NCBI GenBank assembly: GCA_008973525.1
Contig: WACJ01000106.1
Span: 558,001-622,000, forward strand
Direction of reading: 5' to 3'
Source of the DNA: Stenopsyche tienmushanensis
Lineage: Eukaryota; Arthropoda; Insecta; Trichoptera; Stenopsychidae
Length of the DNA: 64,000 nucleotides
The translations under genes were made by a program, and so were the position numbers. Shown piece after piece: positions 1,119 through 61,405 of this stretch. Each line of letters starts with the position of its first letter. The first letter of the stretch is position 1. The notes under the pieces were generated by a model. It was not told where the DNA came from. It saw only the letters and a list, made by a program, of their open reading frames with translations, and searched no databases.

Positions 1119-2360
1119 ATGTCAAAACGATTTGGTTAGAAGAATGTTCATGGTGTGGAGTTTAATAAAATAGTAGAAGAGTTGCAAGGTAAATGATAAC
1201 CTAAAGGAAGATAAAGATTAATGCAGAATGACATTAACTGAATATTTCTATTTATTCAAGGAATTTATGAATATTAACTCATCGCCTAAGGCTATCCGTT
1301 CTGATATGGAAGTTGATAATGTTGTCAGAATTATAAAGACTGAACCTGAAGATAAAATGGATTTGCCTATAAATTTGCCTCCTTGTGAGTTCATTCAATT
1401 GAAAGAAGAACCTGTGTTGAAAGAGGTTTTTTTTTAAATTACAGAGCAATAAATAAATTTTATAAATAAACGTACAACTACATTAATAGATTATTACTTT
1501 TTTCTCTAGGAATGTAAAGAAATTAAGGTGTCTTCTGGTGACGAGGCTCATTCAGATATTGAAATTGTTCATGAAATCGATAACATTGCTAGAATTATTA
1601 AAGAAGAATCTGTTACGTCAGATGAAGGTGACTCAGAGAACAATTTGGATGCCAATAAATCCACACACTCAACTGACGAATTATCATCCGACGTGGTTTG
1701 TTTTTTTTTTTCATCATAAGGATAAAAAAATGAAATTAGAATTCTAAGAACTTTTATCAATCAGTGCATGATTCAAATTTTAAACGAATAGTGAAGGTTT
1801 CCTGTGACCAAATTCTTGTCAATTGTAAAATTATTGGTAATATGAGTAAAATTAGTGTTTCGTACTCATCTATGTGTACTTATGCTGTGCATTTTATGAG
1901 GATATTATCAGATCTCTACAATATTTAATAAATACACATATTGCTTATATTGCTGAGGGCGATTCAGGTGTAATATGGAATTTTGCTGTACAAATTTATT
2001 TATGTTATATAAAAATATAAATGTAGTATCTTATTTTTCTGCATTGCGCAACAGAGCATGCTACGGTGTATCGGAGTAGCAAATGTATTTGTTAAGTCTG
2101 TATGTGGGGACATCTCTTCTCCAAGCTCCTAACTACTGATTTTCTAACGCCCTGAGCTGTTGATCTGTCATTAAAATAAAGCAAAATTTCGGGTTATACT
2201 TCAGTGGCCTTCGTTTGTTTATGTATTATTTTGATTTTTACATTGATAAATATTATATATATATTTGATGTGGAATTTCAGACGACACCCATTGGTCAAA
2301 AATCGGATTTTGATAATCGTAAAAAAATTGTCAAAAAGCAGAATATAAAGACAACTCAGG
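1119..2360 (+). pseudogene. Unit 1: decayed Sp-like family gene, N-terminal exons
   Basis: The first-exon ATG is at 1119 but the seventh codon is a stop (TAG, 1137-1139), and the rest of the exon is frame-shifted against its paralogs. Exon 2 is 1261-1425 and exon 3 is 1510-1695; both are open and show the family's acidic repeats (IIKTEPE, LKEEPVL, IIKEESVTSDE). Exon 2 starts GAATTT rather than the usual GTGTTT, and the exon 3 donor reads GTTTGT. Exon 4 (from 2282) has lost the family frame within a few codons. The paralogs are nuclear-type acidic proteins linked to Sp/KLF fingers. A shorter protein from the ATG in exon 2 is conceivable, but I call this copy a pseudogene. Confidence 0.75.
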
Positions 2361-2504
2361 TATGTATGGATGTTATAGAACTGTGTGATATCTATTACAC
2401 GCACTTCTTCCGTGTCATTTACGACAAATATGCTTATAAAAATACAAGATTTCACTATAAAATATTAGTTACGAGTGAAATTTATCGTATTAATAGTATT
2501 GTAG

Positions 2505-2805
2505 TTTTTCATATGTATATCTGATCATTCAAATTATTGATCATAAGGCGAAACGGTCATATACAGCACGCAATCAAGTAGAGAAGAGTGGAGAGAACAT
2601 AATTAGACTCACGGCAAGACATTTTCTACATCCATTACCTGAAACGACTATGGGGTTCAGAGGTCGGAGGCATTGTTACGTATGCAAGAATTCAGAAATA
2701 CGACCCAAAAAAAGAAAGGATACGAGGTTTATCTGCATTGACTGTAATGTTTCATTGTGTGTGTATCCCTGTTTTGAGGAATATCACACAAAACTATACT
2801 TTTAG
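2505..2805 (+). CDS. piggyBac C-terminal cysteine-rich domain exon (unit 1)
   Basis: An open frame of 100 codons follows the acceptor AG at 2503-2504 and ends at TAG 2803-2805. It has no start codon at the head, so it reads as a spliced exon or a fragment. It carries the end of a piggyBac transposase: RLTARHFL, then the zinc-binding array CYVC, FICIDC, LCVYPC and FEEYH. The catalytic domain is absent. The acceptor is phase 2, as in units 3, 5, 7, 8 and 9. Exon 4 of this unit is decayed, so a productive fusion is doubtful. It could equally be a 3'-truncated piggyBac relic. Confidence 0.65.
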
Positions 2806-3660
2806 ATCCATATTCTCTCTTTTCTTATAAGTAAGTTTCATTTCATATTGCTTTTTTTTTAAGATATTCAAATCATTTTCATTATTGTAATAATAATTTA
2901 ATTTGTTCCCGTTAGTCCTCTACTATGTATCATAATCATCATAGTGCAGCCACAAACAGTCCATTGCAGAACAATGAGCTATAAACTATAAAGATAAAGA
3001 ATTGATAAACATCGTTCTCATGCACTGAGACCAAAAAGGATCTGAGCAAACTTAAAAAAATAAATGTTGGATCATAATTATTATAATTCTTCTTATTTTG
3101 TATGATGATGATGATTTTTGGTAAGTAATTATTAAATGTTGATAATGAATGATTTTGTTTTACTACGTACAATCAAATGTTATATGAGGTGGATTCTGTG
3201 GGGGGGTAATATATATAAAAACGAATGGCGTATCTTATTTTTCTACATATTTCCATCCATTAGAAAAAAAATCCATTGAATAGGAAGCTTCTTGATCCTC
3301 GTCACTGAAGAAAAAAGGTGAGAAGTAGCATCCTCTGTTGCGCAATGCGTAATTATAGGTGGTCGCTAACACATATAAAGCACTACTAACCGTCGATTTG
3401 TTATTATTTAAGTGTTCGATCTTCGGTGGACTATGCCGGTGAGGCGGTAACACACAAACGTCAACATTTTAATTCACATCAATTCGTTTGGCGAAAACGT
3501 ATTCGAGTCACTTCTAAATTCAATATTTGGCCTCCATCACATTGTTTATAAATGCTTGTTTATGTTAAAAATAAACCAATGAATAATTCTTGTATTTTTA
3601 AAATAAAATAATATATATATTCATGCATGAGTTTTTGTTATTTTAAGAGGATTTATAAGA
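2806..3660. repeat. Shared 3' module of the units, no gene
   Basis: The part from about 2960 to 3190 (CTCATGCACYRA, AATGTTGGATCATAATT, TTTTTGGTAAGTAATTA) recurs after unit 2 (about 6150-6400) and unit 7 (about 51000-51250), so it belongs to the duplicated unit. I see no coding frame in it. Positions 3190-3660 hold nothing I recognise apart from the beginning of the next unit's upstream homology. Confidence 0.55.
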
Positions 3661-3885: not shown

Positions 3886-5502
3886 ATGTCAAAACGCCTT
3901 GGTAAAAAGAAAGTTTTGGGTGTGGAGTTTAATAAAAGCGCAAAAAAGAGTCGCAAGAAAAATGATAACCTGAAGGAAGGTCCTCCATTTGAAGGGGTAC
4001 TCCATTTTTCTGAAATATAGAATGAATAAAATTGATTCATAATGAAATTAATCGATTATTTATATTTTTTCAAGGTGTTTATTAACATTAAATCATCACC
4101 TAAAGATATCCATTCGGATATGGAAGTTCATGAAGTTGATAACGTTGCTAAAACGATGAAGAATGAACCTGCTTCATCAGATGAAAATGCATCATCCGAT
4201 GAGGTTCATTCAAATATAGAAATCGTTCATGAAATCAATAACATTGCCGAAACTATGAAAGACGAACCGGTTTCATCGGATGAAATTGACTCCAAGAATA
4301 ATTCGAATGCCAATAAATTCACCCCGTCAAATGACAAAAGTGAAGAGCTAAAAGGTCATCCAAATGCTGCGCCTAAATGTCAGCACTGTATAATGTTTAC
4401 GCGCGACGTCCTTTCAAATGATATGAAACATTTCGTTTTAGTAGAAAATAGTGCAATTTCAACTGCGGACAAGTATACAGTGCAACAACGCGTTCACATT
4501 ATTCAAACGTACTATGAAAACGGACATTCTTTGAAAAATACTCATAACAAAATTCGCGATTTCTTCGGTGTAAATAATCGGCCGAATCAGGCTTTAATCC
4601 AAAGATTAGTGAACGAATTCAAAGAGACTGGTTGTGTTATTGACAAACCAAAAAGTGCAAGACCGACAAATGTGCGCACGGATGAAAACATTGCTGCCGG
4701 AAGCGTTGAAAACGAACGTTCGCAAGAATCGTACGGTCCTTTATGGAGGATTTTGCACAAAGATTTGCATTTACACGCGTATAAAATTCAATTGACGCAG
4801 GAATTGAGAGAAAGCGATCATTCACATCGTCGTGATTTCGCCGCTTGGACTATTGAACGACGAACGAGAGATGCGTTATTTTCTGGCAAAATTTTGTTCA
4901 GCGGTGAAGCTCATTTCGCGATGGACGGATACGTAAATAAACAAAATTGTCGCATATGGGGCGATGAAAATCCTCGCGTCGTTCAGGAAAGAAGTCCGCA
5001 CCCAAATAAAGTTATTGTTTGGTGTGCATTTTGGGCGAATGGAATCATCGGGCCGCATTTCTTCGAAGATGGTGTCGATTTGAACGCTGAGCGATATCAA
5101 TCAGTGCTGCGTGACTTTTTATGGCCGCAATTGAATCGTATCGATGTGTCCGATGTCTTTTTCCAGCAAGACGACGCTGCATATCACACGACCTGTGAAA
5201 ATGTTGCGTTTTTGCAGTCGAAATTTCCTCAACGTGTCATTTCACAGAGTGCGGATTTCAATTGGCCTTCGAGATCATGTGATCTAACGCCGTTGGATTT
5301 TTTTTTGTGGGGTTTTTTGAAAAGTCGAGTGTATGCAAACAAGCCGCAGACGATTCACGATCTGAAGAACAACATTCAAGTCGCAGTTCACGAAATAACT
5401 CCAGCGATATGTCGAAAGGTCGTTGAAAATTTTGATATTCGAATCGATGCCTGTAGACGCAGTCGCGGTGGACATTTAAATGACATTCTGTTCCACGTAT
5501 AA
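3886..5502 (+). CDS. Unit 2: Sp-like N-terminal module fused to mariner-like transposase
   Basis: Exon 1 is 3886-3996 (37 codons, lysine-rich, KKSRKKN, nuclear-localisation-like). Exon 2 is 4075-5502; both splice sites are canonical and phase 0, giving about 512 residues. Residues 38 to about 127 are the family's acidic module (TMKNEPASSDE, TMKDEPVSSDE). The exon 3 donor seen in paralogs is missing: where they read GAAGAG|GTATGT, this copy reads GAAGAG|CTAAAA and runs on in frame. After a linker (KGHPNAAPKCQHC) comes a Tc1/mariner-superfamily transposase with a helix-turn-helix (YTVQQRVHII), a shortened second DNA-binding part, and the catalytic fold (NCRIWG, FFQQD, SCDLTPLDFFLWG, RRSRGGHLND). 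The first catalytic aspartate is glycine (FSGEAHF, residue 314); the other two are kept (403, 440). I expect a DNA-binding but not transposing protein. An old insertion that happens to be in frame is the alternative. Confidence 0.8.
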
Positions 5503-7149: not shown

Positions 7150-8951
7150 ATGTCAAAACGCCTTGGTAAAAAGAAAGTTCATGCTGTGGAATTTAATAAA
7201 AAAGTAAAAAAGAGTCGCAAGAAGAATCATAACCTCAAAGAAGATCCTCCAATTGAAGGGGTACATTTATCTGAATTATAGAATTATTAAAATTAATTCA
7301 TAATGAAACTAATTGATTATATTCATTTTTCAAGGTGTTTATTAGCATTAAATCATCACCTAAGGATTCCGATATGGAAGTTTTTTATGAAATTGACAAT
7401 GTTGCTAAAATGACGAAGAAGGAGCCTGCTTCGTCAGATGAAGGCGATAATGCTGTTAAAATTATAAAAAACGAACTTGTTTCATCAGATGAAAATGTAT
7501 CACCCGATGAGATTCATTCGGATATTGATGTTGTTTATGAAATCGAAAATGTTGCTAAAATGATAAAAGATGAACCTGTTTTGTCGGATGGAAACCCCAA
7601 GAATAATTCGGATGCCAATAAATACATCCAGTCAAATGACAAATCTTCACGTGAAAAGGTATGTTCTTGTGTGTCATAATGATAATGTGTTGTATGTGTA
7701 TTTATGGGTATTATTGTATTAAAAAATATTCTGTAGGCTGATAAATATTATATCTGATTACAGACAATACCTATCCATCAAATATCGGGATTGGGAAAAC
7801 ATAGAAAAAATTCTACAAAGCGAAATCCACGAAAAAAGCCGAGTATCGGCAAAGAATTAGCGATGACTCAGTCGAAATCAACTCATGACAAACCCAAAAT
7901 TGCACCATGTACTACTGCTGAGTAAGTAAACACGTATCTGTAGTGTATACAGATACCATGATTTGCTCGTCTCTGATCAAATATTGTGCGTTTCATTCTC
8001 ATTTATGCTTTATGTGGATATATACATGAATGGAAGTAGACGGACGTCGAAAAAAAAGGCTCTTATATCAGATAATTTCTTTTTTAATCACAAGAGAGAG
8101 ATCTGGCTGCGGGAAGGACGTCTTCCCGCAGCCAAGGCTACCCGACGACTCCTCTCAAGTCCCGCCTCCTGCGCATCACCACCGAATCGGCAACGGTGCA
8201 CAGGCAAAAAGTGACTGGTATCGTTTCTCCAGATGATCTGATCCGCTTGGGTCTATTGCTATTACGGCCCGAATCCAAAATGGCTCGAAGGAACTGGCAT
8301 CTGTGTCAAATGGCCTACCAATTGGAGATGGTAGATTCGGACGCAATAAATGCTTCGCCGTACATGTCCATGACCTCACAATTGAACCTCGTGACTTCGG
8401 AGCCTGAGGTCTCGTCCCAGAGTGGTCTGAAATTTTAAATTTATTTATTGCTGGATGTAAATCTGGAATTATTGGAGGGAAAGACGGAGCCGGTTATATA
8501 TAAATTTTGTTTTATTGTTTGTTTTTTATAAGATGTGATTAATTTGGATTTCAGAAATCCTTCAAAGATGCCAATTACTCCAGCTCAAGTCGCACGGGCA
8601 GTGCTGCTTATTGAACAAGGTCGTACTCAGCGCGAGGTGGCTGCTACCCTGGCTGTACCACGTACGACGCTTCGATACGCCTTAAAACGGTATAAGCAGA
8701 CTGGCCTCTACACTAGAAAACCTGGAAGTGGTGGCACAAAATGCACATCGGCTCGCGATGATCGGTTTATCATCTTAGAAGTCTTGCGAAATCGGTTTCT
8801 CACCGCCGTTGAGATTAAGCAGCGTCTTCAATCGATAAGAGGTGTCAATGTGAGCGAGCGGACGATAAGAAGAAGAATGAAAGAGAGAGATTTACACGCC
8901 AGAAGACCGGCACGTGAGCCTGAACTCCTCAAGCAGCATCGTGTTGCTTGA
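7150..8951 (+). CDS. Unit 3: Sp-like N-terminal module spliced to Tc1 DNA-binding domain
   Basis: Predicted exons: 7150-7260, 7335-7658, 7764-7921 and 8555-8951. The first three give the lysine-rich exon, a fused exon 2/3 with no intron between ([32 protein letters not shown]), and the basic exon 4 ([10 protein letters not shown]). Exon 4 ends GCTGA|GTAAGT in phase 2. The acceptor TTTCAG at 8551-8554 opens an exon in the matching phase that reads NPSKMPITPAQVARAV. This is the paired-type helix-turn-helix region of a Tc1 transposase (TQREVAATLAVPRTTLRYAL, then a second HTH ending TIRRRMKERDLHA). The frame stops at 8949-8951, just before the catalytic domain, which follows in decayed form. Exon 4 lacks the Buttonhead box. 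The product would be about 335 residues. Alternatively the Tc1 fragment has its own ATG (8570) and is unrelated to the unit. Confidence 0.7.
8105..8133. repeat. Perfect 12-bp inverted repeat with 5-base loop
   Basis: GGCTGCGGGAAG and CTTCCCGCAGCC flank GACGT inside the last intron of unit 3. It would form a strong hairpin in RNA. It may be an end-to-end scar of a small inverted element; no function is visible. Confidence 0.7.
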
Positions 8952-10789: not shown

Positions 10790-11289
10790 ATGCCAAAACG
10801 AAATGTTAAGAAGGAAGACACGGGCGTGGTGGTTAATAAAAGAGCAAAGAAGAATCGTAAGGAAAATGCTAACCTGAAAGGAGATCCTCTGCGTGAAAGG
10901 GTACATTTTTCTGGAATATAAAATTATTGAAATGAATGCAGAATGGAATTAATTGATTATTTTTATTTTTTTTCAAGGTGTTTATTAAATCATCACCCAA
11001 GCATTCTGATACGGAAGACGTTAATGAAATTGACAATGTAACCAGAATTGTGAAGAAGGAACCCGCTTCATCAGATGATGTTGATAATGTTGTTAAAACG
11101 ATAAAGAAAGAACACGCTCCATCAGACGAAGAAATATTACCCGATGAGGTTCAATCAGATATTGATGTTGTGGATGAAATCGAAAATATTGCTAAAATAG
11201 TGAAAGACGAGCCTTTTTGGTCGGATGAAAACGACTCCACGGATGCCAACGAATACACCCAGTCAAATGGCGATCTGTTATGTGAACGG
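10790..11289 (+). CDS. Unit 4: Sp-like family N-terminal exons
   Basis: Exon 1 is 10790-10900 (37 codons, RAKKNRKEN) and exon 2/3 is 10978-11289, both phase 0 with GT-AG borders. The acidic module has three psi-K-x-E motifs ([33 protein letters not shown]). The donor CGG|GTATGT is intact. I cannot find exon 4 downstream. The nearest coding sequence in phase is the piggyBac cysteine-rich fragment starting near 12548. Frames are open throughout, so this copy may still be expressed, with an uncertain C terminus. Confidence 0.7.
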
Positions 11290-12496: not shown

Positions 12497-12547
12497 ATGA
12501 TATTTCTAGAATTATTTTTTCTGTGGCAGCAATGCGCCGGGTACCAG

Positions 12548-12886
12548 CTAATGCTATATAAAACGACTAAACAACAGAAACGAGAACAGCTGCTTAATCA
12601 CTTGCGGTATGTGAAAACTTTAGTCCACCAACTGACTGGAGATTGTCGCCAGCCACGCGATCGAGCCTCGACGTCGACCTCCGATTCCGAGGATATCCGC
12701 TTGAACGGAAAGCTGCATAATATTCTAACGGGAGTCAGGAAGGATTGCAAAGTGTGTTCTCAACGAAACAAAGCCGGCAAAAGACGTCAAACCACATATT
12801 ATTGTAATACGTGCCCCGACAAGCCGGGTATGCATCTCGGCAATTGTTTTATGAAATATCACACGCAGCAAAATTACAAAGACTAA
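12548..12886 (+). CDS. piggyBac C-terminal fragment with cysteine-rich domain
   Basis: The open frame runs to TAA at 12884-12886. It encodes a linker typical of piggyBac C termini (LLNHLRYVKTLVHQLTG, a serine-rich acidic stretch) and then the zinc-binding array CKVC, TYYCNTC, LGNCFMKYH. The catalytic core is missing. Acceptors at 12532 and 12546-12547 (ACCAG|CTA) are both phase 0, matching the phase-0 donor of unit 4. That makes a unit 4 fusion possible, but the acceptors lie in or beside a dispersed repeat, so this is weak. It could be only a transposon relic. Confidence 0.6.
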   Translation, partial: LMLYKTTKQQKREQLLNHLRYVKTLVHQLTGDCRQPRDRASTSTSDSEDIRLNGKLHNILTGVRKDCKVCSQRNKAGKRRQTTYYCNTCPDKPGMHLGNCFMKYHTQQNYKD

Positions 12887-13850: not shown

Positions 13851-13923
13851 CAGATTATTATCCCGCTTCCAGCTATTACATTTGATTCATTTCGGTTCTT
13901 TCATTTAACAGAAAACTTTAACT

Positions 13924-28305: not shown

Positions 28306-29541
28306 ATGCCAAAACGACTTGGTAAAAAGAATGTCCTGGGTGTTGGATTTAAAAGAGCAAAGAAAAGTCGTAAGAAAAATGATAACCTGAAGGAAGATTC
28401 ACCATGTGAAGGGGTACATTTTTATGAAATATAGCAATAATAGACGCAATGAAATGAATGCAGAATAAAATTAACCGGTTATTTTTTAAGGTATTTATTG
28501 ACATTAAGTCACTACCTAAGGATGTCCATTCAGATATGGAAGTTGTCCATGAAGTTGATAATGCTGCTAAAATAATAAATACTGAACCCGCTTCATCGGA
28601 TGACGTTGATAATGTTGCTAAAATGATGAAGACTGAACCTACTTCATCGGATGAAAATGATTTGCCTGAAAATTTGTATCCTTGTGAATTTGTCCAATTG
28701 AAAGAAGAACCCCTGTGTAAAGAGGTATATTTTATATAGAGTTATAAATACATTTTATAAATAAATTTAAAGTTTAATAGATTATTATTTTCTCAACAGG
28801 AATATATCGAAATTAAGGTATCTCCTGATGAGGTTCAATCAGATTTTGAAGTTGTTCATGAAATCGATAATATTGCTAAAATGGTGAAAGATGAACCTGT
28901 TTCGTCGGATGAAATCGACTTCAAGAATAATTCCGATGCCAATAAATACACCCGGTCAAATTACGAATTTTCATATGAAGAGGTATGTTTTTTTGCATCA
29001 TACAGATAATAAAATGAAATAAGATTTCTAAGCACTTTTATCAAACTGTGCATGATTCAAATTTTATATTAATATTGAAGGTTTACTCGACTCGGTTTAA
29101 AGTGTAAATTCTTATCAATTATCAAATTATTGGTAAAATGTTTTGCCATGAGTAAAATTATTCTTTCATACTCGTGTGTATATATGCTGTGCATTTTATG
29201 AGGGTGTTATTCAGATATCTGCAATATTTAACACATACATACATTCCTTTATGGTATGTATGTATGGGTATTATTGTGTTAAAAAATATTCTGTAGACAT
29301 TTTGATTTTTACATTGATATTGTATGATGTGGGAAATTCAGACGATACCCAACCGTCAATTATCACAATTGGGAAAACATAGAATAATTGGCACAAAGCG
29401 GAATCCACGAAAAAAGCCGAGCGTTGGCAAAGATCAAGGGACAACTCAGGCGAATTCAACTCCTGACAAGCCCAAAATTGCACCTACTGAGAGAAAACCT
29501 CGTGTAGCTTGCACTTGTCCCAACTGTGCACATGGAGATAA
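28306..29541 (+). CDS. Unit 5: Sp-like N-terminal exons with Buttonhead box
   Basis: Exons: 28306-28413, 28491-28724, 28800-28982 and 29342-29541, all with GT-AG borders and matching phases (0, 0, 0, then 2). Exon 1 is lysine-rich ([10 protein letters not shown]). Exons 2 and 3 carry acidic repeats (MMKTEPTSSDE, LKEEPLCKE, MVKDEPVSSDE); in one repeat the acceptor lysine is lost (IINTEPASSD). Exon 4 is basic ([10 protein letters not shown]) and ends in a Buttonhead box (RVACTCPNC), a hallmark of Sp transcription factors placed just before the zinc fingers. No zinc-finger exon follows. The next in-phase acceptor, at 29776, opens the first exon of an Academ-like gene. The unit is otherwise colinear with unit 8, which does have fingers. 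Confidence 0.8.
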
Positions 29542-30360
29542 GTACGCATTTTAAAAGTTTAATAACACAGGCATTTTTTTGATTTATTCAGCCCTATCTA
29601 TATGTGTAAGCAAATGTCTGACTTTCGATAAGTTCTATAATATTCTTATATATTAGATAAAGGCAGAATTTAACCTCTTCTAGTTGCTTCTTGGATGTTT
29701 TATATTTCCTTTCATTGCGCAATAAAATGTAGCTTTAATGTTATGGTATAAATACAGTCCCTCTTCGTCTTTACAGCGACAAATCGAATGCCGCGTGGGG
29801 TCTTCACTCGCCGTGTACGAGAAAGCGTTTAGTAAGAAACATGAATTTCCAGCTGTACTGTTTCGTTTGCCACAAGAAGCCGAAAGATCAAGCGATTCTG
29901 CAGTTTACGCAAGAACGATTTGAAAAGTGCGTGGAGTTTTTGAAAATCAAAAGGAAATTCAAATTGGTATATAGCGATTTAACATTGCCGGCTCAATTGA
30001 GTGGACTCGAAGGATATCATTCCGAATGTTACAAACGTTTTACGGCATTGTCACAAATATACAGAAACTCTTTCCCCAAGGATGCTGAGCCTCGTGCAAG
30101 TTCAAGCACAAATGCACCTGCGAATGATTTAGCTACCTTTGCTGAGTAAGTAAACACGTATCTGCAGCATATACAGATGCTATGATCGCGCGTCTCTTCT
30201 TAATTTTGGCGCGTTTCACTCTCGCTTTATATATATTTGCGCTCCGTGGGTTATATATACTTCTCTATAAATACGTATATATTTTTAATTATAATAACGT
30301 AATTATTGAGAGGCAAATTTAAATCAAAATTTCATCTCTGTCCAATATTTCGAATCGACG

Positions 30361-39367: not shown

Positions 39368-40137
39368 ATGCCTAAACGAGTTGTTAAAAAGAAAGTCCCG
39401 GGCACGGAAAATAATAAAAGATTAAAGAAGAGTCGTAAGGAAAATGCTAACCTGACGGAATGCCCCCCATGTGAAGGGGTACGTTTTTCTGAAATATACA
39501 ATTAATAAAATTAATGCATAATAAAATAAAATTATTCTATTTTTTCAAGGTGTTTATTAGCATTAAATCATCACCCAAGTATTACAATTCAGATATGGAA
39601 GATGCTTATGGAATTGACAATGTCGCTAAAATTATAAAGAAAGAACCCGCTTCGTCAGATGACGTTGATAATGTCGTTAAAACAATAAAGAAAGAACACG
39701 CTCCAGACGAAAAAATATTACCCGATGAGGGTCAATCAGAAATTGAGGTCGTCTATGAAATCGACAATATTGCTAAGATCGTAAAAAATGAACCCGTTAT
39801 GTCGGAAGAATTCAAGAATAATTTCGACGCCAATGAATACTCCCAGTCAAATGATGAATTTTCATGCGAAGAGGTATGTTTTTATGCATTTTAAGGACTT
39901 ATATACATACGTTATGCATCTTATATATGTATATCTGATGTAGGGATTTCAGACGGTGCCCGTCCGTCAAATATCAGGCTTGGCAAAACATAGAAAAAAC
40001 GGCACAAAGCAGAATCCACGGAAAAAGTCGAACACCGGCAAAGAACATGCGATAATTCAGGCGAATTCAACTACTGATAAGGCCAAAATTGTACCAACCA
40101 CTTCTACAACAGCGAATGATTTTTCTACCACTGCCGA
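39368..40137 (+). CDS. Unit 6: Sp-like family N-terminal exons
   Basis: Exons: 39368-39478, 39550-39873 and 39953-40137, all open with GT-AG borders. Exon 1 is basic (RLKKSRKEN). The fused exon 2/3 has [21 protein letters not shown] and IVKNEPVMSE. Exon 4 (TKQNPRKKSN) has no Buttonhead box and ends NDFSTTA plus GA|GTAAGT, phase 2. This tail resembles the end of the Academ-like first exon of unit 5 (NDLATFA, GA|GTAAGT). If unspliced, the frame ends immediately at TAA, so a short protein of about 206 residues is also possible. Downstream, Tigger-type insertions have landed, and I cannot find the original C-terminal exon. Confidence 0.75.
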
Positions 40138-46830: not shown

Positions 46831-49800
46831 ATGTCAAAACGCCTTAGTAAAAAGAAAGTCCTGGGGGTGGAATTTAATAAAAGGGTAAAAAAGAGTCGCA
46901 AGAAAAATGATAGCGTGAAGGAAGAACCCCCAAGCGAAGAGGTGCATTTTTTTAAATGGAATATATACGGACTTTTAAATGTTGCTCTAACAAAAAGGCC
47001 GCAATAACCTAATAAATTTCGAGATTCCATATTGAAAGATACTGTAGAATTAATAAAATGAATGCAGAACGAAATTAATTGATTATTTATATTTTTTTTA
47101 AAGGCGTTTATTAACATTAAGTCATCGCCTATGGATGTCCATTCAAATATGGAAGTTGCTAATGAAATCGATAATGTTTCTAAAATGATGAAGATCGAAC
47201 CCGCTTCGTCAGACGATGTAGATAATATTGCTAAAGTGATGAAGAACGAACCTGTTTCATCCGATGAAAATGATTTTCCTGAAAATTTGCCTCCTAGTGA
47301 ATTCTTTCAATTGAAAGAAGAACCCGCATGTAAAGAGGTATATTTTATATAGATTTATATATAAATTTTATAAATAAATTTACGCGTTTAATAGATTATT
47401 ATTTTTCTCTCCAGGAATATATTGAAATTAATGTACCTCCCGATGAAATGCATACAGATATTGATGTTGTTTATGAAATCGATAATATTGCCGGAATGAT
47501 GAAAAACGAACCTGTTTCGTCGGACGAAATTGACTCCAGGAATAACTCGGATGCTCATTCAAATGACGAATTTTCTTGCGATGAGGTATGTTTTCATGCG
47601 TCAAAATAAGCTCTTATTAATTAGTGCATGATATTTTAAATTAACCCATTTCTTCCCAATGTTGCGTGTATGCAACTTCATAAAATGCCGTCAAAATGAA
47701 CTTATTACGCGCGTTAAAAGGCATTTACAATACGCGTTAAAATATATTTATTTACAATATTCCTGAATATGTGGAATACACATGGACTTATATATCCGTT
47801 GCGTTAATGCAACGGTGGGAATTGCCCAGTTTATGCCCTGTGCAGTCAAAAATAAGACCTCGAAACGGTGCTAATGAAGTGTTCTACAGTCTAAAAGCTT
47901 TATAAGTATATTCTGTTATGACTTGTTATGATATTTAATTTGGCAAAAACATATTTGCATTTTTAGAATACATTATTTGCCCTATTTTTCAATTATAGAA
48001 CTTAGAAATGGCATTCTACAAAAAGCGATTACAAAAAGTCGATGAAGTTATATCCGTTCTTGAGGAGTTAGAGGCAGAAAAAGCGATCGACGCGGCCATC
48101 ATACCTCCCGACGTAGACGAACTTACCGACGAAGAACAAATAGAAGACGAACGTATGATTATTAATAACGAGGGTGACGGATTGCCGATAGACGTGGTGG
48201 GTACGTTTGAAATTCACGCTACTTTAGATGACAAAATAGATATAACGCACGCCTGAAACTATACAAAATACTTCCGAAGAACCCAAACAGAAAAAGAAGC
48301 GACATATGACAAAATGGCTGAAGCGCGTCCCAACTTATACGAACACGCCTAAAAACTGCGAAGTTAGACGCGTCGAAGAAATACAGAATAAGTTTGGAAA
48401 TCTGAGCCCCATACAGATGTTTGAGCTCTTTTTAGACAAAGCGATTTTGGATGAAATAATAGAGTTTTCGATCAAATACGCGCAGAGTAAAAACCATAAT
48501 TTTTTTTCGATGTCACGTACGGACTTGAAAAAATTTATCGGAATCCTTATATTCACCGGCTATCATTCTCTCCCCGAAATAAAATTTTATTGGAGCTTGG
48601 ATGAAGATAAAGGGATCCCGCTCATACGCAAAACAATGTCGCGGAATAGATTCGATGAAATAATGAAGTATATTCATCTTTCCGATAACGATAAGCTGGA
48701 CAAATCTGATAAGTTCTCCAAGTTAAGACCGTTTTTCGACGAATTAAATAAACGGTATATGCAATTTGGTGTGTTTTCCCATAAGATATCGATCGATGAA
48801 GAGATGGTACCGAATTTTGGACGTCATTCTGCCGATATGTTCATACGCGGGAAACCGGCGAGGTTCGGATATAAACTGTGGTGTATTGCCTCGGCCGGGG
48901 GATACGTTTATCAGTTCGATCCGTACGGTGGAGCTTCGCAGAAGACTAATGAAAATCTGAATTTAGGCGAAAGGGTTGTAATAAACTTGTTGAAAGTTGT
49001 TCACGATCCTGAGAATCACATCATATTTTTTGATAATTTCTTCATGAGCCATTACCTTCTTACCTTGTTGTCAGAAATGAAATTCTTTGCAACCGGTACT
49101 GTGAGAGAGACCCGACTGCCTTCTTGTCCGCTTCAAACGACGGAAGCGTTGGCGAAAGAACCGAGAGGAAAGTTTGATTATAGATTTGATGGCAACAATA
49201 AAATATTCGCTGTTAGGTGGCGCGACAATTCTGTTGTAACAGTCGTTACAAACTTTGGTACCCTCGAGCCAATAATGAATATAAAGAGATACAACCGGAA
49301 GGAAAAGAAATTCAAAATGATCCCCCAACCAAATGTTATCCATCAATACAACCAAGGCATGGGAGGTGTTGATTTACACGATAATGCCATTGCAGACTAT
49401 AGAATCAGAATCAGAGGTAAGAAATGGTGGTGGCCATTATTCTCCAATGGAATTGATAGTGCTATTGTCAATGCCTGGAAAATGTATCAACTGGCAACCG
49501 GATCCACTATCAGTCAAATTGACTTCAGATCTCAGATTGTATTATCTCTATTGAAAACTGAAGAGGAATCTGAACCGGAGGTAGAGCATCAATCTCAGAA
49601 AGGAAACAATGATCTTGGACACCCGAACAAAAACAAATTACCAGGAGCGGCGAAGGACAAAAGCGATCATATTTTAATCCGCAACGAAGAAAACGCAAGA
49701 AGGAGATGTAGGATATGCAAAAGCCAAACGATCTATATATGCAAGAAATGTAAGGTCCACCTTCATACAAAGTGTTTTTCAAAATTTCACGAGTGATATG

Positions 49801-50728
49801 ATAAAATTTATTTCAGTTTTTTCATACAATCCTGTACATTTTGAGCGAATAAAAGCATACGATCCAAATAATAAAAGGATTTTATTTTTTTACCAGGGAA
49901 TTCCCAGCGTTGCGCCAACACGCGCTGCTTAATTTTGATATTACCATATTTTATCATGATATTTGGGAAAAAATGGATTAATGCGTACATTCCTTGCGTT
50001 ACTTTGCAGTATGCGTGGGCATTCATTTGATTTTTACGCTGATAAATATGTATATATCTGTAGTGGGAACTTCAAACGACACCTATTCATCAATTGTCGG
50101 GATTGGAAAAGCGTAGGAAAATTGACGCAAAGCGGAATCCACGAAAAAAGCCGACAATATCAACTCCTGACAAGCTGAAAATTGCACCTATTACTATTGC
50201 GCCGGGGAACGATTTATCTACATCTGCCGAGTAAGTAAACAAGTATTCTCTTAACTCATATTTGATTATCCGGCATGCGTTGCAATACCACGTTTCGCAT
50301 AACAAACAATATTTTTACCATGCCTATGTTATTCCCGCAAGTGTAAACAATAAGCGGACGAAGTTTTATCGCAACCGGATGAACGGTATGGCAGCGCATT
50401 AAATGCGGACAAACAAACATTGTTTTTAATATATTGGATAATGATAATGTGTAATACACATTAGGCGTGTACGTCCGATACAAATTGTTTTTATGATTTT
50501 AGAAATCCGTTGATCAATGGTCCGTCTCTTGCACCGGCGAGGAATACAATACACCTTCCGTCGCTATTCGAAAAAGACAATAACGGAAGGACGAAAAGAA
50601 AGCGGTGCAAATATTGTTGGCATCTTGATCGTACGCGCAAAGACTCGATCTATTACTGCAAGGATTGTTCCAATAATCCTGGGTTTTGTCTGGAACCGTG
50701 CTTTAGACTATTTCATAAATATAATTAG
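46831..50728 (+). CDS. Unit 7: Sp-like N-terminal module spliced to a piggyBac cysteine-rich exon
   Basis: Predicted exons: 46831-46941, 47104-47337, 47415-47585, 50076-50230 and 50503-50728. Phases match throughout (0, 0, 0, 2). The acidic module has MMKIEPASSDD, VMKNEPVSSDE, LKEEPACKE and MMKNEPVSSDE. Exon 4 is shortened and ends NDLSTSA, GA|GTAAGT. The last exon follows TTTTAG, reads NPLINGPSLAPARN, and ends in a piggyBac cysteine-rich finger (CKYC, YYCKDC, GFCLEPC, FRLFHKYN). It has no ATG, so it can only be translated as a downstream exon. Weak points: the exon 4 acceptor has mutated from CAG to CAA (50073-50075), and the exon 1 donor is GTGCAT. A full piggyBac element sits in the third intron. 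Either the gene is dying or exon 4 is skipped or spliced elsewhere. Confidence 0.6.
48008..48256 (+). pseudogene. piggyBac transposase N-terminal part, frameshifted
   Basis: Starts eight bases after the acceptor-like AATTATAG. An acidic head (LEELEAEKAIDA, DVDELTDEEQIEDE) ends at TGA 48254-48256. The rest of the transposase continues directly in another frame, so a single-base change has split the gene. Confidence 0.75.
48306..49796 (+). CDS. piggyBac transposase core and C terminus
   Basis: 496 residues are open from the first ATG in this frame, which is itself open back to about 48255. The catalytic aspartates are visible at 164 (ISIDEE), 243 (IIFFDNFF), 356 and 359 (GGVDLHDN), and the C-terminal finger is complete (CRICK, IYICKKC, LHTKCFSKFHE). 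It would catalyse TTAA-specific cut-and-paste transposition if the upstream frameshift were absent. It serves as the intact reference for the four deleted copies at 16-24 kb, although it is from a clearly different piggyBac lineage. Confidence 0.9.
   Translation: MTKWLKRVPTYTNTPKNCEVRRVEEIQNKFGNLSPIQMFELFLDKAILDEIIEFSIKYAQSKNHNFFSMSRTDLKKFIGILIFTGYHSLPEIKFYWSLDEDKGIPLIRKTMSRNRFDEIMKYIHLSDNDKLDKSDKFSKLRPFFDELNKRYMQFGVFSHKISIDEEMVPNFGRHSADMFIRGKPARFGYKLWCIASAGGYVYQFDPYGGASQKTNENLNLGERVVINLLKVVHDPENHIIFFDNFFMSHYLLTLLSEMKFFATGTVRETRLPSCPLQTTEALAKEPRGKFDYRFDGNNKIFAVRWRDNSVVTVVTNFGTLEPIMNIKRYNRKEKKFKMIPQPNVIHQYNQGMGGVDLHDNAIADYRIRIRGKKWWWPLFSNGIDSAIVNAWKMYQLATGSTISQIDFRSQIVLSLLKTEEESEPEVEHQSQKGNNDLGHPNKNKLPGAAKDKSDHILIRNEENARRRCRICKSQTIYICKKCKVHLHTKCFSKFHE
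50265..50450. repeat. Dispersed repeat copy in the last intron of unit 7
   Basis: Contains TGGTATGGCAGCGCATTAAA-like and ACAAACATTGTTTTTAATAT sequence, the reverse-type copy of the family at 13.3, 42.0 and 44.1 kb. Confidence 0.55.
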
Positions 50729-50739: not shown

Positions 50740-50890
50740 GTGATCCAACGTGAAATGGACAGATGCTTGGAATTTATGGAAATAAAGTATATGGTAGGAT
50801 ATTGCATTTAAGGGCATATCTCCATCGGCACACCGGTGAAGGATCTTTCGTTCGCAATTGGATGTTTTATGGTAAAAGGTTCGTGAATTC
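50740..50890 (+). pseudogene. Relic of the first Sp/KLF zinc-finger exon (unit 7)
   Basis: The sequence parallels exon 5 of unit 8 (GGNKVYGR-like, LRAYLHRHTGE, NWMFYGKR). The zinc-binding cysteines are lost (VRNWMFYG instead of ICNWTFCG), and the beginning is out of frame. The finger exon therefore decayed in a unit that has a piggyBac finger exon just upstream of it. Confidence 0.8.
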
Positions 50891-52682: not shown

Positions 52683-53992
52683 ATGCCAAAACGACTTGGT
52701 AAAAATAATGTCCTGGGTGTGGGATTTAAAAGAGCAAAGAAAAGTCGTAAGAAAAATGATAACCTGAAGGAAGATTCAACATGTGAAGGGGTACATTTTT
52801 ATGAAATATAGCAATAATAGACGCAATGAAATGAATGCGAAATAAAATTGACTGGGTTTTTTTTCAAGGTGTTTATCAACATGAAGTCATCGCCTAAGGA
52901 TGTCCATTCAGATATGGAAGTTGTTTATGAAATTGATAATGTTGCAAAAATGATGAAGAAGGAGCCGGCTTCATCAGATGAAGTTGATAATGTTGCTAAA
53001 ATGATGAAAAATGAACCTCTTTCATCAGATGAAATTGATTTCCCTGAAAATTTGCATCCTAGTGAATTCATCCAATTGAAAGAAGAACCCAAGTGTAAAG
53101 AGGTATATTTTATATAGAGTTATAAATACATTTTATAAATAAATTTAGGGTTTAATAGATTATTATTTTCTCAACAGGAATATATCGAAATTAATGTATC
53201 TCCCGGTGAGGTTCATTCAGATATTGAAGTGGTTCATGAAATCGATAATATTGCTGGTATGATGAAAAACGAACCTGTTTTGTTGGATGAAATTGATTTT
53301 AGGAATAATTCAGATGCCAATAAATACACCCATTCAAATGACGAATTTTCATGTGAAGAGGTATGTTTTTGCGCATCATAAGGATAATAAAATAAAATGA
53401 GCATTTTTACACTGATAAATATTATATTTATATATTTGATGTGGGAATTTCAGACGATACCTATCCGTCAAATATCTGGGTTGGTCAAACATAGAAAAAC
53501 TGGCACAAAGCGGAATCCACGAAAAAAGCAGAGCGTTGGCAACGATCAAGGGACAACTCAATCGAATTCAACTCCAGACAAGCCCAAAATTGCACCTATT
53601 AAAAGAAAACCTCGCGTAGCTTGCACTTGTCCTAACTGTGCACAAGGAGACAAGTACGTATTTTATTTATATTTGACTAAAATATAAAATAGTATTAACA
53701 GTTTGCGTTATAACATACTGGTGCATTTTATTTAGCGCGTATGGATCGAGAAGGAAACAGCATATTTGTCACGTGGCAGGATGTAATAAAGTATACGGTA
53801 GGACGTCACATTTAAGAGCACATCTCCGTCGGCACACTGGTGAAAGACCTTTCATTTGCAATTGGACGTTTTGTGGGAAAAGGTTTGTGAATTACAAATT
53901 TTTTTTTGGTGAACAATGTGACTTTATTATATAAAATCTCAATTCTTAAATAGGATTAATAATAGCAAACATGATGCCAAATAAAAATTATG

Positions 53993-54023: not shown

Positions 54024-55657
54024 ATGTTTTTAATTGAGGATCTAAAAACAGGTATTCAATTGCATTATGTTAATTTTGAGAGGTAAATTAAAATTACAGT
54101 AGACCCGCAGTAATTCAATAAATATTTTGCCAGTTTATAAAGTATTGCCCCCAAGCCCTCGTAGTCGGTGGATAATTTAAATTGAAAAGTAGCTCCCAAG
54201 ACAAAAAAGGTTGGACAACCCTGGCCTAGGCAAACAGGGGAGAACGGTTTTAGGCTGTTCGAATGGCGACTCGTCTCCATGGCTAGGTACTAAGATTGGC
54301 CGAACCGATCCAGTTAGTCGCTGTCTGTCGTCTGTATCTTGTTCTTTTGTCTTCTGCTAATCCGGAGATCGAACTCTTTAACTCGACTTGATTTGTGTTT
54401 ATCTGCTAATTTGAGTTTTAAGTTTGAAGAAAGGAAAAGCGATCTGAAAGGCGGACCGATTGGACACAAAGACTTTGTGGCCATTCCGTCCTCTTTTAGG
54501 GCTTTTTGCGACATTTTCGGGGATAAATGCGGTCTTCTATGATCTGCACGATCATGAAAGCCCCCTCAGAGGCTAACTTACATAGGTGACTTGCGGTAAA
54601 TGAGGTCGCGAACGAACCTAGACTTCCTCTCACCCATAAAAACTATATATTTCTCGATTATATACTCGATTGAAACATAATCACGACGCAGTTTTTGTTA
54701 CATCTTTCATTACGTCTTGCGCACAGTGGTGTACAGCATTTTTTGAAAGGCCTACCCTATCTGTTAGCTCGCACACTTACAGTCGACGGTCATCTAATAC
54801 CATTTTGTGGATCTTCTTCACCATTTCTTGGATGATTACTGCGCTGTTCGTCTTGGCAGTACGGCCTCGTCTAACATTTCATTTACTATGATGTATTTAC
54901 TACAACTCGAATCTAATAATAGGAATATTGATATGAAATATAATAGATACAGGGTATAGATTTTCATATGGTGTACCAAATATATATCATAGTATCGGGC
55001 GATTGTTTTTTATTTAGTATTTTTTTTAAGGCAACAACCATCATCTATACGTTTACTTAGATAATTGCCATGGGCGCTTTATACCCTCGTTACAGTTCTG
55101 CCGGATTAGACCGGGGCTGGATTACCGCAGGTCTGCTGTAGTGCATTGGTTAAAAATTATGGATTTTAAATAACAACTAAATAACCATTTTTTTCCACAG
55201 GCTGTTAGTTGTAATCAATTGACATGTTAAAAGAGGGGGAAAATCTGTTGATTCAGTTTAATTTATTTTAATTGTATCTTATTTTATGCAGATTTAAACT
55301 CTCATATGATTTAAAAAGGCATAAAAGAATACACACATGTGAAAAGCATTTCAATTGCCCACGTTGTTCGAGGAAATTTACCCGTAGCGATCATTTATCG
55401 AATCACGTAAGATCTCACGACAAAGGAAGAAAAAATGTAAGGACTAATTTATTTATCATATGGTTGATTTGAGAATATTTATATTGGATTTAAACGATTT
55501 TTATTAATAGGAATTAGCCACTTCTACTCGGTCAATATCTACCGACAGTGACAACGATAGTTGTGATGGTAAAATATTTATCACTATACATACAAAGCCT
55601 GGTCAAAATGAACTCATCATACCTGACGCCGTAGATGCCAGTTCCGACTTCAGCTAA
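52683..55657 (+). CDS. Unit 8: Sp/Buttonhead-like zinc-finger transcription factor
   Basis: Exons: 52683 to about 52791, 52869-53102, 53178-53360, 53454-53653, 53736-53882, 55292-55436 and 55511-55657. From exon 2 on, all splice phases fit. Exons 2-3 hold the acidic repeats ([42 protein letters not shown]). Exon 4 ends with the Buttonhead box RVACTCPNC. Exons 5-6 encode three C2H2 fingers of Sp/KLF type with all zinc ligands ([56 protein letters not shown]). Finger 2 lacks the usual RSDEL contact helix, so its specificity should differ from the GC box. Exon 7 ends in an acidic tail. Exon 1 has one extra A (five rather than four, near 52740), giving an early stop; translation may start at the ATG in exon 2 (52881). 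This is the ancestral-type member of the family. Confidence 0.8.
53990..54027. repeat. TA/TG microsatellite
   Basis: A (TA)n run passes into (TG)n in the fifth intron of unit 8. Confidence 0.9.
54300..54665 (+). repeat. Dispersed repeat copy (GCGGACCGATTGGACACA family)
   Basis: CTGAAAGGCGGACCGATTGG, ACAAAGACTTTGTGGCC and ATGAAAGCCCCCTCAG match the copies at 31 and 62 kb; it lies in the fifth intron of unit 8. Confidence 0.65.
54685..54890 (-). pseudogene. Mariner transposase fragment, antisense
   Basis: Minus-strand reading gives [11 protein letters not shown], then a helix-turn-helix like [16 protein letters not shown], the second DNA-binding subdomain of a mariner transposase, with stops and shifts. 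Confidence 0.65.
54891..55200. other. Rest of the fifth intron of unit 8
   Basis: Contains GATGTATTTACTACAACTCG and GAAATATAATAGATACAGGG, scraps shared with the 5' region of the piggyBac-derived genes and with 10.3 kb. No gene. Confidence 0.45.
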
Positions 55658-58105: not shown

Positions 58106-58602
58106 ATGGCGACGAGTCCCAAGAAAAAGAAAGCTCGCATGGATAAAGAATTTCGCTCGGATGAAGTCATCATAAAAAAGGAAGTCGAATTCGATGAAAA
58201 TTTCGATAGAAAAGATATAGATACAGATGCAGATCCGAACGAAGAATCTAAATTAAAACAGGTACTTATTTAAAATGTTTTCCATAAAGTGGGTACGCGT
58301 ATGATAAAATGTATTTATACGTTTTAATGCTTTTATTTTCTCAAGGAATATATTGAAATTGACATAAAGGCCGAGGATGCGTTCGAAACAAAAAAAGATT
58401 CAGACATCGATGAGGTCTTTGAACTCGATAAAATCGCCGATTTGAAGAACGATTCCGACCTGAAAAACGATTCCAATCTGAAAAACGATTCCGATCTGAA
58501 AAACGATTCCTACTCGCAAGAACGTCTCGAAATGCAAAAGCCTATCGTAGAAAAGAGTTCCGAGCCTGGATCGTCTAAGATTTACAAGCAGCCCACACCT
58601 AG
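58106..58602 (+). CDS. Unit 9: divergent Sp-like family N-terminal exons
   Basis: Exons 58106-58261 (52 codons) and 58346-58602, with GT-AG borders. Exon 1 starts MATSPKKKKARMDKE, nuclear-localisation-like, and has VIIKKEVEFDE. Exon 2 opens EYIEIDIKAEDAF, aligning with exon 3 of the other units (EYIEIKVSPDEV), so the counterpart of exon 2 is missing. It contains four tandem copies of a DLKNDS-type hexapeptide. It ends in phase 2 (PTPR, AG|GTAAAC). The next exon in phase is the Tigger transposase at 59704. Base composition is less AT-rich than in units 1-8. About a quarter of the predicted residues are acidic. Confidence 0.7.
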
Positions 58603-58875: not shown

Positions 58876-59545
58876 TTGGGTGTGTGAATAAGTTCCTGCC
58901 GTTTCGCCGTCGGACGACGGTATAAAAATTGTGCGCGTATCGCTCAAGTGTCAACGCATCTATATTGAAGTATTACGGCTTAAAATCAGTGTGCGTCATT
59001 CCATTAACGTGTAAACGATGTTTATTGATAGCGCGAATTTTGTGCCGAATAAATTGTATTTGCGGGGAATTTTATTGCACTATATTCAATGGAAATATGC
59101 AGCTGAAGCACGTAAGGTCTGGTGGAACGTGCATAAATTGGTTAAAACGCTTTAAAAATAATGGTTTTTGATGAGGCGCCTTACGACTTGAAGCCGAGAG
59201 ATGTGGAAAGGCGTCTTTTCGCAGGCGTAATGTATTATGAGCTGCTCCAATCCAACCAAATCATCACAGGCGATCTCTATTGAAAGCAATTGATGCGTTT
59301 GATCTGAGCATTGAAGGAAATAGCGGCCACAATATGCCAAAAGACACGACACGGTGATTTTGCAGAATGACGATGTTAGATCGCATGTCGTTTTTTTCGA
59401 TGTGGAATTCAAATGCTGCCGGAAAGATGGACAAAATAGTGACTAACGATGAGCAATACTTTAATTGACTTGCTTTTTTATTACTTTTTTTAAAATAAAG
59501 GATATATTTTCATGAAAAATGGCGAGGATTTATTCACACACCCAA
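58876..59545 (+). mobile_element. Deleted mariner element with terminal repeats, in the intron of unit 9
   Basis: The ends are TTGGGTGTGTGAATAAGTTC and, reversed, TTGGGTGTGTGAATAAATCC. The family is the same as the minus-strand mariner at 57.0-57.5 kb. It keeps broken pieces of the DNA-binding part (GEFYC, WLKRFKNNGF, then LRSNIV-like debris) and no catalytic domain. Confidence 0.75.
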
Positions 59546-59703
59546 TACAATTTTGGATCTTTGCTCCTATTGATCGAACAAATCGTTGTAGAAGGCTCAA
59601 TTTAGAGTTTGTACGGTTAACAAAAAGAATGTATGTGCATATCAGTAAATCTAATAGTTTATCCACGATATATTCTATGATTACATGCTTAAAAACTTTA
59701 CAG

Positions 59704-61405
59704 CGCAGTATCAGAGAAGACGGTCAAAAGAAGAGCTATTAGTTTGGATACAAAGATTCAAATTTTAGATTGCCTTCAGAAAGGGGAAAGAATGTCGACC
59801 ATAGCTAGGTGTTACGGAATGAACGAATCCACCATTCGGACTATAAAAAAGAACGAAATCATTATTAGAAAGAGCGTGAGTTCTGGCTCGATGACGAGTT
59901 CAAAAGTTTCCTCGTACGTTAGAGATAATGTGCTGCAATCCATGGAAAAGGCGTTGATAATCTGGATCGAAGACAGCACCCAAAAGAGAATACCCATCGA
60001 TATTAACGCGATAAAGCAAAAAGCTGTCCGAATATACAACCAAATCAAACAGCAGACTCAATTTTCATCATCGGATACTGCGTTGTACGAAAATCCTAAT
60101 TTTTGCGCAAGTAAAGGGTGGTTCGAGGGCTTTAAAAAACGACAATCGCTCTATAATCTCAAGAATAGATGCGATCTCGCTTCCGGTGACGAGTATGCTG
60201 CGAATCAATTTTTACCCGTATTCATGAATATAATCGAAGAAAACGCGTTCAATCCCGATCAGGTATTTAACGCCGACGAGACTAAACTGTACTGGAAAAA
60301 ATTACCGAGCAGAAAGCGCTGCAAGTCTGAAAAATCTCCCAGCGGATTCAAAGCGGCGAAGGAACGCGTGACATTATTGCTGTGCAGTAACGCGTCCGGC
60401 GATCGAATGATGAAACCGCTATTAATAAACCGAGCGCTCAAACCGCGATCCATGCGGGGCATAAACATGAACAACATTCCCGTGCATTGGATGGCCAACA
60501 AAAAAGCATGGATGACCACAAACATATTCACGGAATGGTTCCACAACTGTTTCATTCCGGAAGCCGAGAGCTACCTGAAAGAAAAAGATCTCCCATTTAA
60601 AATACTTTTACTCCTAGGCAACGCGCCCAGTCATCCGCACGATATACAACATCCAAACGTGAAAGTCGTATTTCTCCCGCCGAATACAACAGTCGCTGAT
60701 TCAACCGCTCGACCAAGGCATAATATCGACGTTCAAAACGCATTATATCAGGCGGACGCTGCAGGACATTTGGAGCAAAGCCGACGAAAACAAATCAATC
60801 GCGGTCCTCGAAATTTGCAAACGATTCACGATATTAAACTGTGCGAAACACGTCGCTTTGGCTTGCAACGAAATAGGCAAAACGACGTTAAACGCGTGCT
60901 GGAAACAAATATGGCCTCAAATCGTCGAACGAGATAACATTGTGCCGACGCGAGACGAAGAATTCTCCGATATTATAAATTTATCGAATTCATCTACTCG
61001 GAGACGGCTGCGAAAATATAAACAATCATGATATAGGCGAATTACTCGCCGATGAAGAATTAACCGAAGACGATTTAGTCAGCATGGTGTTAAGTCCCAA
61101 AGTTGAAAGCTGGCACTGCCAAACCGACAGTGTTGACTGCGGACAATTTGAGCGAAGTACTCGAGCTCGCTAAAAAGCTAGAAAAGCTCGTGATAGATAT
61201 CGATCCCAATACAGAGCGGGCGTTAAAATTTCAGCAGGATCTTAAAAATATTTACTCGCAGTATGAAGAGATTCACAAAGTCATCGCCAAGAAAAAAAAG
61301 AAAAAGAAAGCTATTTTAAAGGTGCCCAGTGAACAACACGAGAGTGATATCAAACCCAAAATATTAAACACGGTAAAAACTCAATTTAATGGATTTAGGA
61401 TTTAA
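59704..61405 (+). pseudogene. Tigger transposase exon(s) joined to unit 9, frameshifted
   Basis: The acceptor CTTTACAG at 59696-59703 opens an exon in phase 2 that reads AVSEKTVKRRAISLDTKIQI, the native head of a Tigger protein, without any ATG before the middle of the first helix-turn-helix (59792). Both DNA-binding domains are present (ARCYGMNESTIRTIKKN; NFCASKGWFEGFKKRQSL). The catalytic domain starts well (VFNADETKLYWKKLPS, ALKPRSMRGIN), but the second aspartate is glycine (LLLLGNAPSHP). Near 60695 the frame shifts by one base, and the C terminus continues in the new frame to a stop at about 61029. More C-terminal coding sequence lies at 61030-61405 (ELLADEELTEDDLVSMVL; LEKLVIDIDPNTERAL), again with shifts. 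The DNA-binding part is intact, the catalytic part is not. Confidence 0.75.

Follow-up and report, generated by a model that had tools for sequence, protein, structure and literature searches.

The locus described here raises the question of whether a row of tandem units that join one front end to pieces of several transposases is a functional gene family or the debris of duplication and transposition. It lies on contig WACJ01000106.1 (C106) of the trichopteran Stenopsyche tienmushanensis, in a 451-Mb, 549-contig assembly (GCA_008973525.1), and was first noticed in a window of 64,000 nucleotides (C106:558001-622000), for which the original prediction proposed that one Sp-derived N-terminal module is reused in nine tandem units with different transposon-derived C termini. 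We analyzed the joined stretch C106:438001-682000; coordinates below are window positions, negative values lie to the left of the window, and the left-hand units are named by position (m70 lies at about -70.7k). The results indicate that the array is probably a functional, fast-evolving gene family that captures the DNA-binding parts of transposases as new tails, giving rise to putative fusion proteins. The duplicated front end with varied transposon C termini is thus upheld, with most joins in frame and selection evident in the parts open to testing; the qualification is that the front end is not wholly derived from Sp.

A self-BLAST confirmed that units 1-8 have a promoter block and exons in common. 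Unit 9 is a diverged relative, and the array is bigger than had been stated, with ten more units to the left of the window, the first at about -70.7k. In all, 18 front-end units (m70, m63, m57, m54, m51, m47, m15, m12, m10, m4 and units 1-8), in addition to unit 9 as a diverged cousin, are arranged in tandem over about 130 kb of one contig. A search of the whole 451 Mb with exons 2-4 placed all 41 of the matches listed on C106, between 487,628 and 611,597, and none elsewhere. The front end begins with exon 1, which is rich in lysine; two acidic exons follow, in which psiKxEP-SSDE motifs recur, and then exon 4, which in units 5 and 8 continues into a Btd box (VACTCPNC) matching the exon of an Sp gene. 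This Sp gene, with three fingers, is situated at the head of the array (Btd-box exon at about -76.9k, finger exons at -75.9k and -75.5k). Past the end of the array, at 74.8-75.1k, lies a KLF-like gene. In units 8 and m54, exon 4 and the finger exons find their match in the adjacent Sp gene, and these are the only two units that resemble the Sp/KLF proteins in possessing both the Btd box and three C2H2 fingers; the other units differ from them in having lost these fingers, and in all units exons 1-3 are not Sp-like, with zero matches in a sequence comparison across the neighboring Sp gene and no Sp-type N-terminal region. Hence, a derivation of the whole front end from Sp is rejected, and the earlier description of an N-terminal module derived from Sp is right only in part, because exon 4 and the fingers are matched in the Sp gene and exons 1-3 are not. 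In Pfam searches the module recovered two weak matches alone, both below the cut-off.

The tails of 14 of the 19 units stem from transposases of four kinds, namely piggyBac, DUF4817-type mariner, Tc1 and Tigger. Sp fingers form the tails of units 8 and m54, with a broken version in m57; the continuation of unit 8 into these fingers had been foreseen, and a further finger exon at 55292-55436 extends that account. A piggyBac finger, here called finger A, is the tail of seven units (1, m4, m10, m15, m12, m47 and m51), and another piggyBac-type finger occurs in units 4, 7 and m63. The last exon of m63 first encodes a short Tigger N-terminus, resembling the Tigger of m70, and then the piggyBac-type finger. 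The tail of m70 is a piggyBac transposase with no methionine near the start of its frame, which is open from the first exon across the Btd-box exon with a phase 2 join; a Tigger with an acceptor that is phase-compatible with exon 3 also lies within this unit (L024:788-1798). Mariner, Tc1 and Tigger tails are each confined to a single unit (2, 3 and 9, respectively), so that the original assignments to mariner, Tc1, piggyBac finger (units 1, 4 and 7) and Tigger all stand. The "Academ-like" label given to unit 5 could not be confirmed: its cysteine-rich exon, which we leave unclassified, matches no Pfam family at the cut-off, is unlike the window open reading frame at 32.4k and has one distant relative in the genome. 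An NCBIfam search with six open reading frames of the window gave no result. A Tigger tail was also considered for unit 6 and rejected, as the Tigger-type exon at 42.49k is by eye out of frame with that unit. The Tigger-type frame downstream of unit 6 (42486-43353) has its own ATG and keeps the DNA-binding part, with no Pfam DDE match.

Of the 14 tails of transposase origin, 11 have junctions that are predicted to keep the frame (units 1, 2, 3, 4, 7, 9, m70, m47, m15, m10 and m4; the frame of exon 4 in m10 was judged by eye), and by the criterion of host exons in frame with transposase sequence these units are predicted to encode host-transposase fusions. The individual joins are informative in several ways: 1) The junctions 7921/8555, 29541/29777, 50230/50503 and 58602/59704, singled out beforehand for testing, have GT..AG borders and keep the frame. 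2) Unit 2 is one continuous frame, again as proposed; the end of the mariner abuts the last bases of exon 3, and with the insertion at this point the donor is therefore gone and translation reads on. 3) In unit 7 the replacement of the fingers is visible, since a relic of the Sp finger exon that has lost two cysteines lies about 50-150 bases behind the new finger exon. At exon 4 of this unit the aligned acceptor AG is gone, and by eye an in-frame AG 12 nucleotides upstream would have to take its place. 4) In m12 the acceptor AG of finger A sits at the same AAG codon as in the frame of a piggyBac gene elsewhere in the genome (L043, on contig C93; see below). 5) The tail joins are in phase 2 in units 3, 5, 7, 8 and 9 and in phase 0 in units 1 and 4. 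It had been argued that six phase 2 acceptors, that of unit 1 included, would be unlikely by chance; five of them hold and unit 1 does not, and because acceptors can also be chosen the argument is weak by itself and is superseded by the gap, stop and branch tests given below. The intron of unit 7 contains a younger-looking piggyBac (47641-49981) with TTAA and short inverted ends, one frame break near 48246 and, by eye, all three catalytic aspartates; this element is not captured.

Coding constraint on the front end is evident from several measures. Gaps between units come in multiples of three in 36 of 41 cases in exons, as against 33 of 139 in noncoding sequence (Fisher p=1e-13), in 15 pairs drawn from 14 units that were hand-chosen and share units and hence are not independent; in the pairs from the window alone the counts are 18/18 in exons and 10/57 outside. 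The ratio of nonsynonymous to synonymous rates (omega) is 0.42 in exon 2 (p=5e-9; 16 units, m63 and m54 excluded), where the most conserved sites include the lysine, glutamate and proline of the motif. It is 0.62 in exon 3 of the eight window units (p=0.012) and 0.63 in exon 1 (p=0.05) across 9 of the 18 units, from which m51 and m47 (other donor), m57 and m54 (truncated), units 1, m4, m10 and m15 (stop or lost start) and m70 (exon absent) were excluded. No stops were observed in exon 2, exon 3 or five copies of finger A, for which neutral simulations run along the fitted trees produced on average 16.8, 19.2 and 9.7, respectively, with stop-free outcomes in 0/300 runs. The zero-stop result of exons 1 and 4 carries no weight because lesion-bearing rows had been excluded beforehand. 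Sites of the psiKxEP form number 1-5 per module in 13 of the 14 modules examined (of 19), and exceed those in shuffled sequences in 13/14; unit 9 has none.

The captured transposase part is itself under selection in unit 3 and in finger A. For the Tc1 of unit 3 there are 124 genome matches listed, 13 of which span at least 100 residues, and among those listed only unit 3 is stop-free, the stop counts in these matches being lower bounds. Twelve Tc1 copies, hand-picked near the top of the 124 matches listed, contained 51 stops in 1,483 codons, with at least one in each. The unit 3 branch has an omega of 0.39 against a background of 1.34 (p=0.004), where the excess of the background over 1 may stem from poor alignment of decayed copies, and this branch also lies below 1 (p=0.022). 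The catalytic half of this unit's own Tc1 is decayed and spread across frames. Catalytic residues are altered in other tails as well. The mariner of unit 2 has glycine for the first catalytic aspartate, which is retained in its siblings L041 and L042 and in Sleeping Beauty; its nearest named relatives are proteins of Anthophora bees (67-69% identity, with one nearer relative at 76%), two of which likewise have glycine at this position. The piggyBac of m70, aligned to the piggyBac structure 6x67, also has glycine for the first aspartate, and the Tigger of unit 9 has glycine for the second, which the Tigger of m70 retains, and a frame break ahead of the third.

Across its seven units finger A shows a one-ratio omega of 0.87, which does not differ from 1 (p=0.42). 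Model M2a is preferred over M1a (twice the log-likelihood difference 16.4, p=2.7e-4, or p=0.002 without m51), a value reached in 0/100 null simulations; relative branch lengths in these site-model fits were fixed from the one-ratio fit. All seven Cys/His positions of the finger fall into the conserved site class, and other sites are under positive selection. Outside the array, finger A is best matched by a tandem group of six piggyBac genes at C93:2.049-2.072 Mb (56-64% identity), with open frames of 560-572 amino acids and, among them, three shorter matches with one stop each. In the one that was read (L043, G000:C93:2052200-2054000) the second and third catalytic aspartates are replaced by asparagine and threonine, and because two of the three are thus lost, the finger A tail may derive from an already domesticated gene rather than an active resident transposon. 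This leads to an alternative in which certain tails, finger A among them at the least, came from domesticated host genes and the array recombines DNA-binding domains that were already in host service. The open C93 genes, the catalytic changes in L043, its AAG codon at the place where m12 and kin have the acceptor AG, and Tigger genes in tandem on two other contigs all favor it; yet the mariner of unit 2 and the Tc1 of unit 3 have dispersed copies in the genome, as is typical of transposons, and the C93 genes might equally stem from the same donor; we regard this alternative as rather unlikely. The Tigger-derived genes (G000:C164:542-557k and G000:C38:432-450k) match unit 9, in some cases, over the DNA-binding part alone, and clusters of domesticated transposases seem to be abundant in this genome. 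Within the array, four tandem piggyBac-derived genes between units 4 and 5 (16288-24502) are 77-90% identical in DNA, all open, and devoid of the stretch of the second catalytic aspartate (aligned for the first of the four). They show the same pattern as finger A in weaker form (omega 0.84, p=0.18 against 1; M2a p=0.017), with no stops against 16.9 expected and stop-free outcomes in 0/200 neutral simulations. Fragments of the unit promoter are found at 22471-22911, upstream of the fourth of these genes.

Several observations weigh against the reading of the array as a functional family. The unit junctions are predictions from genomic sequence, and a number of units are damaged: m57 is broken, with stops in exon 4 and in its finger exon; exon 3 of m63 has a frame break; in m51 the obvious acceptor would read the tail out of frame; the AG preceding exon 3 is gone from m12; unit 6 is without an in-frame tail; unit 9 has a frame break within its tail; and exon 1 of units 1, m4, m10 and m15 carries a stop or has lost its start. 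Omega is not below 1 in exon 3 when taken over 17 units (0.80, p=0.13; m63 excluded) or in exon 4 (0.87, p=0.43; 11 units, excluding m57 for its stop, m70, m10, the relic in unit 2 and the units that lack exon 4). The mariner branch of unit 2 (omega 0.28) is no different from free sibling copies (0.24), and since these are equally low its value was discarded as a sign of selection after capture. The looser psiKx[ED] count does not exceed shuffles (P>0.05) in 7 of the 14 modules examined, and internal repeats of the module help raise the psiKxEP count. The omega values come from a purpose-written codon-model program, which is a weak point; possible gene conversion among units lies outside the codon models; and the evidence base is one genome. 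A search of 5.8 billion proteins, a set that seems short of near kin of this species, recovered no relative of the module; this empty search says little, because L043 from the same genome reached a best identity of just 51% there. The module tree of the 18 units, with 9 changes over 9 tail types, does not require fewer changes than shuffled labels (P=0.24), and for this reason, and because the nine tail types are our own labels, it provides no independent evidence.

The lesions listed above, that of unit 9 aside, would be accommodated by decaying tandem duplicates that were hit by transposons, with in-frame joins arising by chance and no stable fusion protein. Exons 3 and 4, with omega near 1, point the same way, as does the similar identity of exons and noncoding sequence in close pairs. 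Such decay is nevertheless improbable in view of exon gaps in threes, the absence of stops, the open Tc1 of unit 3 against stops in 12/12 fetched copies, and the conserved Cys/His positions of finger A. That the transposons are the beneficiaries, piggyBac-type elements acting as 3' exon traps that use the shared promoter for transposase expression, so that capture would be their strategy and not the host's, is quite improbable: in the literature piggyBac figures as a natural exon trap that carries an acceptor directly ahead of its frame (PMC2268245) and the younger-looking element in unit 7 would suit such a role in its TTAA ends and three aspartates, but what was captured is in most cases a DNA-binding end by itself or a catalytically altered piece, and the finger is under positive selection across seven duplicated units.

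If the array is the functional, domain-capturing family that we favor, its ancestral unit would have combined an acidic, lysine-rich front end with the 3' exons of the Sp gene next to it, and the units would then have multiplied. Transposons, or pieces of domesticated transposases, landing near the 3' end may have been trapped as new last exons, either via cryptic acceptors (units 1, 3, 4, 7, 9, m70 and kin) or via destruction of the donor with translation running on (unit 2). The predicted proteins would use exon 1 for nuclear entry and the borrowed domain for DNA binding, and might repress through the SUMO-type psiKxEP sites, SUMO motifs being reported to be linked to repression. SETMAR, a mariner fusion, is reported to bind transposon ends and to repress bound loci (PMC8327481). 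In the array, each capture would come with its specificity already made, plausibly one directed at the donor family's ends. More tentatively, and with the balance of our judgment still tilted against it, the array might represent an arthropod counterpart of the KRAB zinc-finger clusters, in which a SUMO-baited constant repressor front end takes whole DNA-binding domains from successive invading transposons.

Both host gene-transposase fusions and finger families driven by transposons are already known. To our knowledge, the known transposase captures are single events in scattered genes. Cosby and colleagues reportedly described in 2021 KRAB-transposase and other host-transposase fusions of tetrapods, in which transposase DNA-binding domains were recurrently captured behind a host effector; these are said to be dispersed single genes, whereas here there is one local array. 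The KRAB, FiNZ and ZAD zinc-finger families gain specificity by altering the fingers themselves, whereas the array swaps the entire DNA-binding domain for transposase pieces. As in the KRAB zinc-finger genes, a constant front end is combined with a diversifying DNA-binding part in tandem genes. The KRAB, FiNZ and ZAD families further resemble the array in their many copies, positive selection and supposed conflict with transposons (PMC10547256; PMC9531945). In the primate CSB-PGBD3 a piggyBac, called a natural exon trap, serves as the alternative 3' terminal exon of CSB (PMC2268245). Host 5' exons in frame with a piggyBac-derived last exon are common to both systems, and its cryptic acceptor fits units 1, 7, m70 and kin (PMC2268245; PMC3459987); the difference is one gene, one insertion and a whole transposase there, against 18 units, four superfamilies and mostly DNA-binding parts alone here. 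Caenorhabditis F-box genes with a captured Tc1/mariner helix-turn-helix are likewise a multicopy family, likely from a single fusion of one domain type in N-terminal position (PMC12062965), unlike the several events, several domain types and C-terminal placement in the array. In the open-licence literature searched, outside which most subscription papers lie, we found no array in which a single front end is combined repeatedly with domains from several superfamilies of transposons. The locus displays many outcomes of a common start: fingers kept (units 8 and m54), fingers replaced with a relic left behind (unit 7), capture through loss of the donor (unit 2) or through cryptic acceptors, diversification of one captured domain over seven units, and an insert left uncaptured. 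With these side by side at one locus, exon capture, frame keeping and diversification are therefore open to direct test. The conflict in which zinc-finger genes face transposons would come to include a family that changes its specificity by whole-domain swaps.

Table 1. Exons and tails of units 1-9, in window positions
Unit	Feature	Positions	Strand	Remarks
1	exon 1	1120..1212	+	in-frame stop inside
1	exon 2	1261..1425	+	acidic, psiKxEP motifs
1	exon 3	1510..1695	+	
1	exon 4	2282..2359	+	shortened, Btd box lost
1	tail	2548..2805	+	piggyBac-type zinc finger A, phase 0
2	exon 1	3886..3996	+	
2	acidic exon into tail	4075..5502	+	DUF4817-type mariner transposase inserted at exon 3 donor, stop-free; first catalytic Asp is Gly
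3	exon 1	7150..7260	+	
3	exon 2/3	7335..7658	+	fused
3	exon 4	7764..7921	+	
3	tail	8555..8951	+	Tc1 DNA-binding region, open; decayed catalytic half downstream
4	exon 1	10790..10900	+	
4	exon 2/3	10978..11289	+	fused
4	tail	12530..12886	+	piggyBac-type finger (zf-Tnp_2), phase 0
5	exon 1	28306..28413	+	
5	exon 2	28491..28724	+	
5	exon 3	28800..28982	+	
5	exon 4	29342..29541	+	Sp Btd box (VACTCPNC)
5	Cys-rich exon	29777..30145	+	unclassified; one distant relative in the genome
6	exon 1	39368..39478	+	
6	exon 2/3	39550..39873	+	fused
6	exon 4	39953..40137	+	in-frame tail not found
7	exon 1	46831..46941	+	
7	exon 2	47104..47337	+	
7	exon 3	47415..47585	+	
7	exon 4	50076..50230	+	acceptor probably 12 nt upstream
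7	tail	50503..50728	+	piggyBac-type finger B (zf-Tnp_2)
7	Sp finger exon relic	50781..50881	+	two Cys lost; downstream of the new tail
8	exon 1	52683..52790	+	
8	exon 2	52869..53102	+	
8	exon 3	53178..53360	+	
8	exon 4	53454..53653	+	Btd box
8	Sp finger exon	53736..53882	+	finger 1 and half of finger 2
8	Sp finger exon	55292..55436	+	remainder of finger 2, finger 3; GT donor at end, last exon not located
9	exon 1	58106..58261	+	
9	acidic exon	58346..58602	+	diverged cousin of exon 3
9	tail	59704..60937	+	Tigger transposase with Gly for the second catalytic Asp; frame broken near 60.69k

Two further features of the window lie among the units. Long open frames on the minus strand within a tandem-repeat block (25595-26439) are probably noncoding. 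A hAT-type open reading frame at 13909-15987 encodes 692 amino acids with a DUF4371 and a hAT dimerisation domain and is open from end to end.

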